This document shows, one piece after another, positions 38,905 to 45,900 of a DNA stretch of 64,000 bases. The notes beneath the pieces are model-generated. The model searched no databases and was not told the origin of the DNA. It worked only from the letters and a program-made list of their open reading frames with translations. Each line of letters begins with the position of its first letter. Positions within the stretch are counted from its first letter, which is position 1. The stretch is from Alternaria dauci (lineage: Eukaryota > Ascomycota > Dothideomycetes > Pleosporales > Pleosporaceae). Position numbers and translations under genes: made by a program. The stretch covers positions 744,001 through 808,000 of the forward strand of contig NC_091277.1 in the NCBI RefSeq assembly GCF_042100115.1. The letters run 5' to 3'.

Positions 38905-41276
38905 TTACTCCCTGTCGATAGCCTTTCGGGCCTCTGTGTACTTCTCCAATCCGACATGCTCATTGATCCAATCCAGTACAACTTTATGCCACACGAGCCC
39001 ATTCTCAGGCTTCAACACCCAATGGTTCTCATCTGGGAACGTCAAGAACTGACTTTCTACGCCTTTGCACTGCAGCACGTTGAATGCCGCCAAGCCCTCA
39101 CTTATTGTCAGCCTGTAGTCCAATTCGCTGTGGATTACCAGGTGTGGCGTGGCCCAGTTTTCCGTGAACCTAGACGGGTCCCACTGCAGAGGTGAAGGTA
39201 CCAAGTCAGCGCACGTCTCACTTGAATTTCGGACAGTTATGACTTACCTTGGCCCAATTTTCAGGGTTGTTCCAGAGGGTGCCTTTGATATCGTGGAAAG
39301 GAAAGTACAACTCTTCAGATGCCATCTGACCGGACATGCTAAAAACACCATCGTGGGTTACCAACGCTTTGAACTCGCGGCCGAGAGGGTGTCCTTGAAT
39401 CCAGTTCATCATATACCCGCCATAGGAGGCACCTAGGGCAACGGCGCGTTTTGTGTCGACGTAACCGACGTTCTGTTTGATGTACTCGAAGCCTAGCACA
39501 AGATCTTCGTACGGCAGACCACCCCATTGACCCTGAATGGCATCTGTAAAGGCTTGGCCGTAAGATGTGCCTGGAATAGCATGTCAGTGTGCGACTCAGT
39601 AGAACATGTACTCTGGATTCACTTACTTCCAGTAGGATTCGGGCAAATGACAACGTAGCCTTGCTCTGCGAATACGGCGGGGTTCCACCGCGTACTCCAA
39701 CCATCAGTCCACGCACCTTGTGGTCCGCCATGAATGAGGTAGGCGAGTGGATATGTTTTCTCGGACGAGAAGTTGCTGGGCTTTACAACCCAAGCATGGA
39801 CCTTGGTGCCGGATGCAGCACCTTCCCAATGGATCTCGTCGATCTGATGGCGCGACAGACCAAACATAGAACCAGAACGCGTGTTCGAACAAATGTATTT
39901 GGTTGTCAGATGGTCCGGATCCGAGTCATAAGGCCTGTCGTCAATAGGAAGATCGTAAACGGCTGCATCGCTGTTTTGAGTGCTTAGAGGGACAAGAGAA
40001 TACAGGGAGTTCTCAATCAAGCTGGTCGAATTCACGAGAATGTCGCCGTTCTTGAGCACCTTTGCAGAGCCGATCGTTCCTCCCCTTACGAGTAGCGATG
40101 GCAGAGGCTCCTTCTCTCCGCCTGATTTCGGGGGCCCGGCGCTGTACAGGTTTCCCCGACCATGCGCCTCCGCGGTAAAGTAAAGCCGCCAGTCGTCAGG
40201 GCTCCAAGCTATAGACTGTGGGCTTCGGTCCCACTTGCCCTTACCATCCTCAGAACCGTAGAGCAGTGTCACTTGCGACGGTTTCTTGTAATCGTGGATA
40301 ATGAACGGCTGGTTCTTGTCGGACTCATACCCATCAGTCTTCATGGAAAGGAACGCGATCATACCGCACGAGTTTGACCAGACTGGAGACGTGCTGGCAC
40401 CCTCAAAGCCCTCAATGGTAGCCTTTTGGATTTCTGGCATGTCTTTCGAGTGGAGATCATCCCAGAAGCTGTCAGATGCGCAAACATAAATGTTGGTCTT
40501 GGTGTGCGTTGCGGGGTTCAAATCAGGATCCTTTGATGTGAACACGAGACCGTACTTGGATATGTCGAAGTGGTCTTTTCCGCCAAAGGGTTCGATTGGT
40601 GACTCCAGCTTCGTTCCCTTCAGCGCATTCGTTGGGGGATGTCCAAGCTCGAAAACATGAGACTCTTCCAGTTTCTTCTGCTGAAGCTTGCCGAGCCATA
40701 TCGCGTTCCGATTTTCCGTCACGTAGTGATCCCAGTGGCGAACAAACCCAGACTTGTACAGCTTGCCTGACGAGTGTGGCTTCCCGGTCTTTTCCGGATT
40801 GAAAAGTGTGCCATCTGGCTTGGCTTTACCGACTACGGCAAAACCGAAAATGCCGTCACCGAGCGGATAAATTTTGAAGTCGCTCACCGGTCCTTGGATT
40901 GTACCAGCAGTGTGTTTGCTAGAGTATCGTTAGCTAGCGTACACTTGAGACGATGGCACGGATCATACCTCTTCTCGAAGTTGTCTGGTGATCCGACGAC
41001 GATGTTTGTAGTGCCATCGTCATTCGACTTCAGTAGTAATATAGTCTCGTCATCTAGCCACGTAGGTTCGCTGAAGGATGCATTATCTGTGACCAGGCTG
41101 GTTTGCTGGCTTGCTGAATCCAGAACACGGATCTCAGATTTCTTTGCATGCTCGGAGAAGCTGTACGTCGAGACTGAATACAAGATCCGTGATGCGTTGG
41201 AATTTGGAACGCCTTCAGAACGGCGCGGTGCTTCCAGGAGCACCTCGGGTGTGAATTTGCTGGCTCTGATCGTCAT
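38905..41276 (-). CDS. Prolyl-oligopeptidase family (S9) dipeptidyl-peptidase V-like enzyme
   Basis: Four exons (40969-41276, 39627-40918, 39248-39570, 38905-39183) give 733 residues, the usual DPP-V length. The N-terminal two-thirds are the beta-propeller. The alpha/beta-hydrolase domain holds the catalytic Ser in GASYGGYM near 582, the Asp in SELDYRL near 665 and the His in DENHWV near 695. Unlike the secreted DPP5 antigens of Aspergillus and dermatophytes, the start MTIRASKFTPEVLLEA has no signal peptide, so a cytosolic peptidase that trims dipeptides from peptides is more likely. Intron 1 has a weaker fit than the others (join KS/KHTAGTIQGP) but the phase is right. Introns 2 and 3 are clear, each with GTAAGT. 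Confidence 0.9.
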
Positions 41277-42006
41277 ACTGGTACGGGCCTTAGGAGAAGA
41301 TGCCTCTAAAAGATGTCAGCTGAATCTCTGAGATAAAACGTTTCTTATTCCCAGATCCTGAGCCATTTTGTTGAGCTCACTATGCAGCTACAGGGTGTTT
41401 GGATGCGATGAACTTCAGAAGCGGTGTAGCCCTAGCTCCAGGCCGACGAGCATGTATCCAGACTCGATGTTAAGCAAGAACAGACTTATCGTATCATCAA
41501 TCAGATAACTGGTTGACGACTGCGAGTAGCCTTTGTTCATTGTCCAATGCATCTTGCTGTCGAGCTCCATAGGTATTCCCAAAGAGATAACGACCTAGGG
41601 CGCGCGCCACGTATGAAGGAACATCTGGACCGGTAAGGGAGATTCAAGATAGCGACGTACCGTGTCAGAGATTTTCTGAAAGACTTGACGATAATTCTAC
41701 GCGACTGATGGGTGGTTGTATAAGATGTGAAGCAATGGTTCCACGAGGGAGCACCGTGGTAAATGTCGCGGAATGGACCTACGCGGATGTGGTTGGTCGA
41801 TCCCCTCACGCCAACCACCCGGCCGGCTAGCGGCGTTCTTTGTGTCATCACTCACCGACGTTTGCATTGCCCCGCCTATGATATCTGTGCGACGTCGAGC
41901 GGTTCCGATCGCTTGGTAGAGCGAAGCCGAGCGCACCGTGGCAAACAAATCATTATATATACTATGCTTTTTCAAAAAAGCTTAAAAACAAGTCCAGGGA
42001 CAAAAA
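41277..42006. promoter_or_regulatory. Upstream region of DPP-V-like gene and tRNA gene
   Basis: 730 bp without a recognised protein gene. An AT-rich segment (41950-42006) precedes the tRNA gene and contains TATATATA at 41954-41961, about 46 bp upstream of it. Confidence 0.4.
41954..41961 (+). promoter_or_regulatory. TATA-like element upstream of the tRNA gene
   Basis: TATATATA about 46 bp before the first base of the tRNA gene. Upstream TATA elements assist Pol III initiation on tRNA genes in several fungi such as fission yeast; that use here is inference. Confidence 0.4.
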
Positions 42007-42042
42007 AGTCCTGTGGCGCAGTGGTAGCGCGCCGTTCTTATA

Positions 42043-42077
42043 AGATTCGTCAGACTCTTATGACCTCATCTAAGGTT
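42043..42077 (+). other. Proposed canonical anticodon-loop tRNA intron
   Basis: A 35-nt segment after A37, the standard site cut by tRNA endonuclease. The boundaries are inferred from the requirement that the 3' strand pair with CCGTT. The U-U at the top of the anticodon stem leaves some doubt. Confidence 0.55.
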
Positions 42078-42099
42078 ATGCGGATGCCGTGGGTTCGAA

Positions 42100-42155
42100 G
42101 TACGTGATATGCATGATCCCAGTGATCCGATTGTCTTTACTAACAATTCTTCCAG
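42100..42155 (+). other. Spliceosome-type intron inside the tRNA T-loop
   Basis: 56 nt starting GTACGT, with TACTAAC at 42138-42144 and ending TTCCAG. The branch A is 12 nt from the intron end, as in this genome's mRNA introns. Precise removal yields a complete T-arm and acceptor stem, so the borders are fixed by the tRNA fold independently of the splice signals. Confidence 0.75.
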
Positions 42156-42184
42156 CCCCACCAGGACTAGAGATTCTTCTCATC

Positions 42185-42189
42185 TTTTT
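42185..42189 (+). terminator. Pol III T-run terminator after the tRNA gene
   Basis: TTTTT 16 nt downstream of the discriminator base, followed by another TTTT at 42194-42197. This is the expected position and type of a Pol III terminator. Confidence 0.6.
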
Positions 42190-42984: not shown

Positions 42985-45900
42985 TTACCTCCAAATTTGC
43001 CACTTCTTCTTGCGCTTCGGTACAACAAAGCTGTCCTGACTCATCTTCTGCTCTTGCCCACTTTGGCTCCTCTCATCCTCATCGGCGCTATCGAAGCTGT
43101 CTTCTTCGTCTTCGTATCTACCTCCGCCGAGGTAATTTGCCCCGACACCAGCGTTGCCGTTGCGTTGCGGGTAGGCAGGGTAGGAAGAGGTACGGTCGTA
43201 ACCGCTTCGTTGTGGCTGTGCAGCGTAGTCTGCACGTTGAACTGGTTTCTCAGTATACTCTGGATCTACGACATGTCTGGGCGCTATGGCAGGGTGAGTC
43301 TTCCCATCCCGACCACCGCTAGTGAAGTAGTCACCACCTGCCGTGTCTTGTCTGGCCTGAAGGCCTCCTCCGTCTCGTGAGTAAGGTGAGTTCGGGCCGG
43401 CGCCAACGATCGCTGGATGTGGCGGGTACGATTCGCGCTTCGCTTTCTTTTGAGAAGGTGTATGAGCAAGGACATGAGCATCATGCTCCCAGTTCTTGTC
43501 CTGCGAGTGTTGGTTCAAAATACCACCCATTGACCTTCTCTGCACTTTCGGCGTTGCCTCTGGAGCAGGTGCGGGCATTTGTGACTTGTGAGACGAATTA
43601 TAGGTAGGCTGCTTGCGAGTGGAGGCGGAGCGGGATGGCACCACTGTCGTTTGGGTCGTAGGCTGGGTAGTGGAAGGAGGTACCGGCTGGCTGACGTGCC
43701 GTTTTGCGGCTACATTTTCCCATGCAAAGGCCCTGGACGAAGTACCTGCAGCTGCATCCATGCTTCGCCGTCCATAACTTTCTGGGGCGAGGTCGCGAGG
43801 GGTTCCATTCGTCTGGGTCGGAGCAACATTTGCAGCTGTGTTAGCGTGAAAGCCTGAACTGAGACGGGTGTCACGGGCAACAGGGACAGTGGGAACGATG
43901 GGAGCTGTGGGAGCTGTGGGAGCAGTGAGTGCAGACTCAGAATCACGCCTCTTGCCAGACCCAAAACCCGGCATTATCCGAGGCCCGACTTTGTACTTTT
44001 GCTCTGTGCGCTCTGCTTCGTCTTCGCTCGAAATCTCTCCGAGTTCACTTCCGCTTTCGCTGCCCGAAATGGAGTTTCCATCGTCGCCAATTGTGCCCTT
44101 GCGCTTGCCACCGAAGGCGCCGAAGAAACCGCGCGACTTGACCCTTTCTTTCTCGACAACGCCGTCCTCAGGCTCGACATAGGTAAGGGCTGGTACTAGG
44201 AGTCTGTATGGTGTTGTAATACCCGCAGGGTCGTGCTGTGATACTTCGACGTTGAGACAAATGTCGAGACCACCTTCGAGATTGATGAATTGACCGTGGT
44301 GCTGCGCACTCTTCTTAGTGAGTACACTCGGACGACGGTGGAAGTTGGATGGTCTATCCTGCGACAAACTCTGCCGACTTAGGGGAGGTGTTGCACTCTC
44401 GGATGTGTCTGGACGGGCGACGTCGACCGATGCACGGCGACGGAAGAGTGATGTCAAAGAGTTGCGTCGTGAACGAGTGGGTCTCTCTGGCTCGGATCGA
44501 TCAGGCGAGAATGACGACTGTGGTTGATGGTGGCCAATTTGCTCATCGTCGGCAACAGCATATGCAGGGTTGTTGCGATAAGACAGAGGCGGGCCACGGC
44601 CTCTTACTGAAGGTCTTCTCTGCTGACCACTAAGTCTTCTCACCAACTGTCCTGGCGCAAAGTTGGACATTGATCTTCCCATGCTCGGTCCATTCTTTGG
44701 AGTCGAGGGCGGCGATGGTGTCCCTGGTGGTGAAGAGCCCGGCGTGTACTCTCTAATGCTGCACCAGTTTCGGTGGGGCAGCAGATGAGTGTTGTTTCTC
44801 TTCTTACCGTCAACGCCATGAGTGAACAGGGGTATCATGTCTTCATCTGTTTCCGAATCGAGGTGATGTACCTTGTTGCGCTTGTTGATGATATCTGCCA
44901 TCATGTCTGGAGGCGGTGTGTTGACGATAGCCGAAGAGATAACATTTGGCATATATCTGTGATCCTTGTCCTTGGGGATATTCAGCTTCTTGTTGCTGTA
45001 GAACTGACCAACGGCTGCTAGATGGACGTCACCACCCAGTATGGTCACGCGCACAGATTTGGTCGAAGCAATGTGCTGTAGCTCCTTGATAAACCAGTTG
45101 CGCTCTTCCTTGTGGTGCTTGGCTGTCCAATGGTCATCTAGATCATCCAATATCTCTACGCCTCCATCGAACTTGTTGATAAAGTTGCCCAACATCCCCG
45201 CACGACCAAGAGCCTTGAGAGGATCCATAAGCCTGCTCGTAAGTATGTTCTCGAGGAAGTTCAGGCGAGGGTAGGCGATAGGCACACCAAGAAGCACGAT
45301 CAAGTGCTTGGTCTCACCCTTGATAATCTCATCTTCCAGACGGTCGAAGATGATGTCGTAGGAGTCCTCGGTGAGAATCTCGTCGCGTTGTCGCTCCGTA
45401 CGGCAATCGAGACCGAGGAAGGCTACCTGTCGGCCAAGCTGCATGAAGACGCTTCGGGAGCGCTCTTTGATGTATGGACCTGGGTTTTTTCCAAGTAGCC
45501 ACGACGGTTCGGTCTTGTCGGTTTCGGCGGGGACTGATTGATGTTGGAAGAGCATATAGTACTTAAAAGCGATAGCACCGACACCGGTAAATACTGGTGT
45601 TTGCATGAAGTGATGGGGATATGATCCGAAGCCGTCGATGATGTCGTGGTCATCCCAGATATTCACCATCGGGATCTGCGAGTTAGCCATGCCGAATAAG
45701 CCCTGCGAGAACCACATTGCATATCGGTCGAGGTAAAACTGCTCAAGCTCGTTTTGCATCTCCTCGGAGAATGGCTGGTGGTGCTTGTGCAGCGGGTTCC
45801 TGTTTTCGGTCCATTGCCTGAATAAGGTCGTCTCCCTCATTGCAGCATCGTTGTAGATCTGATCACCTCCACCGATCATTACATGGAATGGACGGGTCTG

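Follow-up and report, generated by a model that had tools for sequence, protein, structure and literature searches.

A tRNA-Ile(UAU) gene of Alternaria dauci appears to carry, besides the canonical intron of its anticodon loop, a spliceosomal intron in its T-loop. The gene lies in the window, by which we mean the whole 64,000-nt stretch of DNA that was analyzed, and no fewer than five further tRNA genes in this genome are interrupted in a like manner. We put the probability at roughly 0.8 that the insert is a U2-type intron within a tRNA gene transcribed by RNA polymerase III (Pol III) and that it is removed by the spliceosome.

The canonical intron and the T-loop insert of the tRNA-Ile(UAU) gene

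The sequence-only reading had placed a tRNA gene with a spliceosomal-looking T-loop intron at 42007..42169, and its coordinates and letters proved exact. The extent of the gene was taken from the sequence and from ARAGORN run on the joined gene, which also reports the intron of the anticodon loop, as i(37,35).

42007..42169, plus strand: tRNA-Ile(UAU) gene with two introns, from acceptor base 1 to the discriminator A73
42007..42042, plus strand: exon 1, with the 5' strand of the acceptor stem, the D arm, and the anticodon stem and loop up to A37 (anticodon TAT)
42043..42077, plus strand: canonical 37/38 intron, 35 nt
42078..42099, plus strand: exon 2, with base 38, the 3' strand of the anticodon stem, the variable loop, the 5' strand of the T stem, and T-loop bases 54 to 59 (TTCGAA)
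42100..42155, plus strand: insert of the spliceosomal-intron type, 56 nt, separating T-loop bases 59 and 60
42100..42105, plus strand: GTACGT, resembling a 5' splice site
42138..42144, plus strand: TACTAAC branch site, with 42143 as candidate branch A
42153..42155, plus strand: CAG, resembling a 3' splice site
42156..42169, plus strand: exon 3, with base 60, the 3' strands of the T stem and acceptor stem, and the discriminator A

With positions 42100 to 42155 in place, none of the 5 T-stem pairs can form, while in the gene joined without them the acceptor stem pairs 7/7, the T stem pairs 5/5, and the TTCRA sequence is matched at 5/5 bases. The claim that the fold demands the loss of this segment thus held, as did the motifs named for it, namely the GTACGT start, the TACTAAC, the CCAG end, and a distance of 12 nt from the branch A to the last base of the insert. 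The true 42099/42156 junction scores the same as two neighboring excision frames that also give the window gene a perfect T arm. Given the joined gene, ARAGORN reports tRNA-Ile(tat); it finds no tRNA in the uncut stretch or anywhere across the entire window; an Rfam search of the window likewise returned nothing that reached the gathering score, as expected for a split gene. The 3' part of the 37/38 intron is able to pair with the anticodon loop (helix TCTTA/TAAGG). The anticodon stem has one blemish, a T31:T39 mismatch.

No second tRNA-Ile(UAU) gene emerged from the genome (34.9 Mb, 10 contigs) when it was searched with a 301-base query or with the joined 72-mer at E values up to 10, the best candidates being scored. 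A pattern of the D arm and anticodon allowing up to 3 mismatches matched 224 places, and no other tRNA-Ile(UAU) was found among the 100 matches listed. We examined as DNA the 20 places with at most 2 mismatches, one of which is the window gene; at the other 19 the only tRNA, as judged by a tRNA model or ARAGORN, is a known Arg-UCU gene. We therefore rejected the idea that the gene is an isolated pseudogene backed by a better copy somewhere in the genome, and the existence of other tRNA-Ile(UAU) genes, which the sequence-only reading had linked to a dead copy, found no support within the limits of these searches. The cognate codon is in use: three stop-to-stop open reading frames (ORFs) of the window contain 22 ATA codons out of 3,244. 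The T-loop intron itself has no similar copy in the genome at E values up to 10, and an introner-type repeat was rejected on this ground. A search for relatives gave no matches among viral contigs (viral_contigs), and its single match in genome_contigs, on a Mycobacterium contig, is about what chance would produce with 19 fixed bases and 257 Gb of sequence. As a separate observation, the exact 20-mer AGTAGCGCCTTATACTTATA occurs at 13 or more places on contigs C1, C4, C6, C8, C9, and C10 and is probably a dispersed repeat.

Interrupted tRNA genes across the genome

Searching the genome with the Rfam tRNA model gave 60 listed places, drawn from the best 63 of 931 candidates. Seventeen of these (L002, L003, L009-L011, L016, L019-L024, L038, L040, L044, L057, and L059) are tRNA genes of mitochondrial type clustered near the end of contig C3 (C3:3344209-3399162, at 3.34 to 3.40 Mb). 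This cluster looks like mitochondrial DNA that has either been inserted in a chromosome contig or been joined to one. The remaining 43 places were read. An A-box pattern added further genes, the DNA being read for 30 of its 56 places. In all we read 52 distinct nuclear tRNA genes (48 plus four tRNA-Leu genes called by ARAGORN), a partial and nonrandom census made up of the best scorers and of matches to one type of D arm. Among the genes read is a tRNA-Ser, L037 (C7:1601287), with the apparent remains of another tRNA 3' half within 70 bases upstream.

Six of the 52 genes have an insert outside position 37/38, 51 to 56 nt long:

tRNA-Ile(UAU), the window gene: insert at 59/60, 56 nt
tRNA-Arg(CCU), L058 on C5: insert at 53/54, 51 nt
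tRNA-Ile(AAU), L060 on C1: insert at 52/53, 55 nt
tRNA-Thr(UGU), L061 at C1:4371930: insert at 11/12 in the D stem, 52 nt
tRNA-Arg(UCG), two genes, L093 and L095 on C1: inserts at 53/54, 51 and 52 nt

Cutting at GT..AG restores the cloverleaf stems in every one of the six, and the joined genes all have an acceptor stem paired 7/7, a T stem paired 5/5, and TTCRA at 5/5; in Thr-UGU these three features are present in the uncut gene as well, and it is the D stem that excision restores. After joining, only two cloverleaf pairs are missing: Ile-UAU has the mismatch T31:T39, and Thr-UGU, like its sister gene, has A13:A22. A perfect T arm results from 2 different excisions each in Arg-CCU and in both Arg-UCG genes and from 11 in Ile-AAU, and in each of these genes exactly one such excision is a GT..AG segment with a branch site. 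The recurrence in five further genes is the stronger control.

ARAGORN recognized none of the four loci given to it with their natural flanks (Ile-UAU, Arg-CCU, Ile-AAU, and Thr-UGU). Placed uncut between artificial flanks, five of the six genes again gave nothing and L093 was wrongly called tRNA-Glu, while all six joined genes were called as tRNAs, with the wrong anticodon for the two Arg-UCG genes, an error probably due to the 37/38 introns that they contain. When a covariance model was trained on the tRNAs of this genome, it found L061, L093, and L095, none of them in the training set, at 35.6, 42.1, and 36.3 bits. Minimum-energy folds of the joined sequences were cloverleaves for Thr-UGU and Arg-UCG only; that of Ile-AAU was a cloverleaf with a shifted T stem, and those of Ile-UAU and Arg-CCU were not cloverleaves. 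The z score was -1.59 for Ile-UAU, whose centroid lies nearer the cloverleaf, and ranged from -0.31 to -2.15 across the joined genes. Unmodified tRNAs often misfold in energy predictions, and we therefore give these folds little weight in either direction.

All six inserts begin with GT[AG]NG[TC], contain CTAA[CT] with the branch A 10 to 13 nt from the end, and end in AG; each thus has the signals by which we recognize a U2-type intron (a GTRNGY 5' site, a YTNAY branch site 6 to 25 nt before the end, and a 3' AG). When the bases of each insert were shuffled, at most 1 in 20,000 shuffles retained the 5' site, the branch site, and the 3' AG together, and a chance match was rejected on the basis of the shuffles and of the recurrence in six genes. 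The catalytic cores of self-splicing group I and group II introns take up hundreds of nucleotides, a size that inserts of only 51 to 56 nt do not reach. The likeness to the surrounding mRNA introns that had been claimed for the window insert was borne out to the extent that the 26 candidate mRNA introns found in the window (14 on the plus and 12 on the minus strand) look alike, with lengths of 48 to 88 nt; these candidates are purely mechanical, some overlap one another, and two overlap the insert at 42100-42155 itself. Two of them lie in a neighboring series of minus-strand ORFs:

39571..39626, minus strand: candidate mRNA intron of 56 nt, GTAAGT..CTGAC..CCAG
39184..39247, minus strand: second candidate mRNA intron, 64 nt

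Taken together, the results support reading the window insert as a spliceosomal-type intron in a tRNA T-loop.

Sequence comparisons between related genes suggest constraint on the joined product. The exons of the two Arg-UCG genes are identical over 85/85 bases, with the 37/38 intron counted in, while their T-arm introns are 67% alike and their flanks look unrelated by eye. Of the 52 aligned intron columns 17 differ, and none of these differences falls in the 14 core splice columns, which were chosen by us (hypergeometric P of 0.0013). The joined Ile-AAU gene differs from its uninterrupted sisters L017 and L018 at 4 of 74 bases, and the changes, C50:G64 to A:U and A52:U62 to G:C, are two compensated T-stem pairs that each span the insert. 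Arg-CCU has changed on both sides of six pairs relative to its sister L034; two of these pairs belong to the T stem, and 42/42 cells are paired. Shuffling provides only a modest control of these pair counts: the Ile-AAU score, which is based on 4 distinct rows and ignores where the changes are placed, is reached in 31 of 500 shuffles, and the value observed for Arg-CCU in 9 of 500. Selection acting on the joined product would be expected to yield identical exons, a drifting intron, and compensated pairs.

Transcription signals and competing explanations

We compared the genes with the A box and B box consensus (B box GWTCRANNC). The signals at the window gene are the following:

41954..41961, plus strand: TATA-like run TATATATA, 53 nt upstream of the gene
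42014..42024, plus strand: A box TGGCGCAGTGG, intact
42092..42099, plus strand: beginning of the B box, GGTTCGAA; the insert takes away the closing C of the box
42185..42189, plus strand: TTTTT, a likely Pol III terminator, starting 16 nt behind the gene

The B box of Ile-UAU is absent from the DNA and present once the gene is joined; it is intact in the DNA of the other five genes. The A box is likewise intact in five of six, being broken by the insert in Thr-UGU. Where the insert lies at 53/54, the final G of the intron itself serves as the first base of the B box. Both Ile-UAU and Thr-UGU retain their other box together with a TATA-like run 45 to 53 nt upstream, and under a slightly looser rule such runs occur within 70 nt upstream of 25 of the 41 nuclear tRNA genes called by ARAGORN; L060 and L095 are without one. 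Directly after the TTTTT of the window gene comes GC, an arrangement shared by many of the tRNA genes inspected. A first TTTT lies 1 to 38 nt downstream in all six genes and none of the six inserts contains one; the tRNA-Ile(UAU) gene has no internal TTTT at all, while both Arg-UCG genes have one in the anticodon arm, which is awkward for Pol III. The boxes, TATA-like runs, and T runs are consistent with Pol III transcription, short of proof. Elsewhere in the genome, both tRNA-Ala(UGC) genes, L049 (C6:402753) and L054 (C1:3095319), have TTTTT in their 37/38 introns, a run that should halt Pol III inside the gene.

It counts against the main reading that uncapped Pol III transcripts in general make poor substrates for the spliceosome. 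Three other explanations of the inserts deserve weighing. We regard it as highly improbable that these are ectopic endonuclease introns, which the tRNA splicing endonuclease would remove by cutting at relaxed structural sites within the D and T arms. Precedent for such sites exists, since 59/60 and 50/51 are junction sites in permuted tRNAs of Cyanidioschyzon merolae and many ectopic introns of Guillardia are without a defined bulge-helix-bulge motif (BHB), according to PMC3978253. Our inserts, at 11/12, 52/53, 53/54 (three genes), and 59/60, all lie off the 37/38 position, to which cleavage by the yeast enzyme is strictly confined according to PMC4033280. The sequence-only reading had named a BHB at the insert borders as the mark of an endonuclease intron, and our scan, a test of low sensitivity, found a strict one in 0 of 6. 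One weak relaxed candidate with flanking helices was found in Thr-UGU, and four of the six inserts have candidates that consist of a central helix alone, with none flanking it. This negative result is itself weak, because among ordinary 37/38 introns the same scan passed only 1 of 4 with both flanking helices, and that one, in the rows listed, only by relaxed bulges. The strongest argument against an endonuclease is the presence and survival of the three spliceosomal signals: GTRNGY, TACTAAC, and AG would serve it no purpose, yet all six inserts retain them and they are spared in the drifting Arg-UCG pair.

It is unlikely, though less remote than an endonuclease origin, that the genes are dead copies, killed by introns of spliceosomal type and compensated by other tRNAs, such as a tRNA-Ile(IAU) reading AUA. 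Uninterrupted sister genes exist for Ile-AAU, Arg-CCU, and Thr-UGU, so that their interrupted copies could be dispensable; the T31:T39 mismatch of Ile-UAU would suit a dead gene, and were that gene dead a tRNA-Ile(AAU) with inosine at position 34 might read AUA. The two Thr-UGU genes found mirror each other, L061 having the D-arm insert and no 37/38 intron and L114/L124 (C2:292163) the reverse. Dead genes would be expected to decay, yet the Arg-UCG exons are identical while the intron drifts (an identity that recent gene conversion could fake), the splice motifs are retained in all six genes, and T-stem pairs are compensated across the insert. Neither for Ile-UAU nor for Arg-UCG did we find an uninterrupted gene, L093 and L095 being the only two Arg-UCG genes found. 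We hold it about equally improbable that Pol II reads through these loci, so that the tRNA lies within a longer capped transcript, is spliced there, and is then excised. Access to the spliceosome would then be ordinary and the TTTT in the Arg-UCG anticodon arms harmless, but the window locus lies between a minus-strand ORF with its 3' end at 42985 and minus-strand ORFs beginning near 41315, no convincing plus-strand host gene appears among mechanical ORFs of at least 90 aa, and the A box and the TTTTT starting 16 nt behind the gene fit Pol III.

Known systems and the proposed pathway

Canonical eukaryotic tRNA introns, which lie at 37/38 and are handled by the Sen endonuclease and a Trl1-type ligase, are likewise removable introns of nuclear tRNA genes, and one of them is present in the same Ile-UAU gene; the inserts described here differ in lying in the T or D arm, in having GT..TACTAAC..AG signals, and in not pairing with the anticodon loop. 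Ectopic D-arm and T-arm introns, as well as genes with several introns, are described from C. merolae and the nucleomorph of Guillardia theta in PMC3978253, and reviews of disrupted tRNA genes (PMC3978253 and PMC4033280) treat these introns as endonuclease substrates. The two systems share D-arm and T-arm sites with ours, with 59/60 junctions there in permuted genes; they have BHB or undefined motifs, whereas the inserts of A. dauci have spliceosome signals and no BHB was found at them.

Spliceosomal introns in structured RNAs have precedents among fungi. They are known from the rDNA of lichen and other ascomycetes, and a 57-bp lichen rDNA intron was removed from Pol I transcripts in yeast, according to PMC8527467. 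These too are short spliceosomal introns in a structured noncoding RNA not made by Pol II, the host being rRNA and the polymerase Pol I there, and tRNA and Pol III here. An mRNA-type intron in an snRNA gene, that of the U2 of Rhodotorula hasegawae, is cited in PMC2586383; introns of snRNA genes are likewise spliceosomal introns in small RNAs, the host RNA in our case being a tRNA. In the present genome the U6 gene is uninterrupted, in a full copy that was read (L087) and in an equal-scoring twin (L088), and a general habit of interrupting Pol III genes was rejected on this account. A 61-base 3' piece of U6 with a T run (L089, C1:5437718-5437778) lies about 230 bases from the full gene L088 (C1:5438006-5438105), on the opposite strand. 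U6 snRNA, a Pol III product, has mRNA-type introns in some fungi, and spliceosomal introns in ascomycete rDNA were reportedly described by Bhattacharya et al. in 2000. Among the matches listed from the open-licence full-text literature, we found no account of nuclear tRNA genes with spliceosomal introns. We class the inserts as introns of a known kind in a new class of host RNA.

To return to removal by the spliceosome, we envisage that Pol III would transcribe the tRNA-Ile(UAU) gene from its A box, upstream TATA, and remaining B box and stop at the TTTTT. The spliceosome would handle the pre-tRNA like a short fungal pre-mRNA, with U1 at GTACGT, a lariat formed at 42143, and a cut after the CAG at 42155. 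Removal of the T-arm or D-arm intron would take place in the nucleus, before the tRNA endonuclease acts; the T arm and the L-shaped body would form only after this excision, the ends would then be trimmed, and the tRNA splicing endonuclease and ligase would afterwards take out the 37/38 intron of those tRNAs that possess it. The tRNA genes of this genome may have gained their spliceosomal introns in four or five separate events. We consider it likely, with somewhat less assurance than the main reading, that the spliceosome is a regular tRNA-maturation enzyme in this lineage, that the introns were gained separately in sites that leave the Pol III promoter mostly intact, and that decoding by tRNA-Ile(UAU) needs two unrelated splicing machineries in series.

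In teaching, tRNA introns and spliceosomal introns are kept apart, each kind with enzymes of its own, and here one pre-tRNA seems to need both. The ARAGORN results suggest that standard tRNA finders miss such genes. The finding brings three questions within reach of testing: whether uncapped transcripts of Pol III are routine substrates of the spliceosome, how introns are gained in genes that have no reading frame to respect but are under constraint at almost every base, and whether splicing can limit the decoding of a codon. With several tRNA genes carrying what look like mRNA-type introns, the spliceosome is probably needed to make some tRNAs, and, if this is true, the supply of tRNA would be coupled to spliceosome activity.
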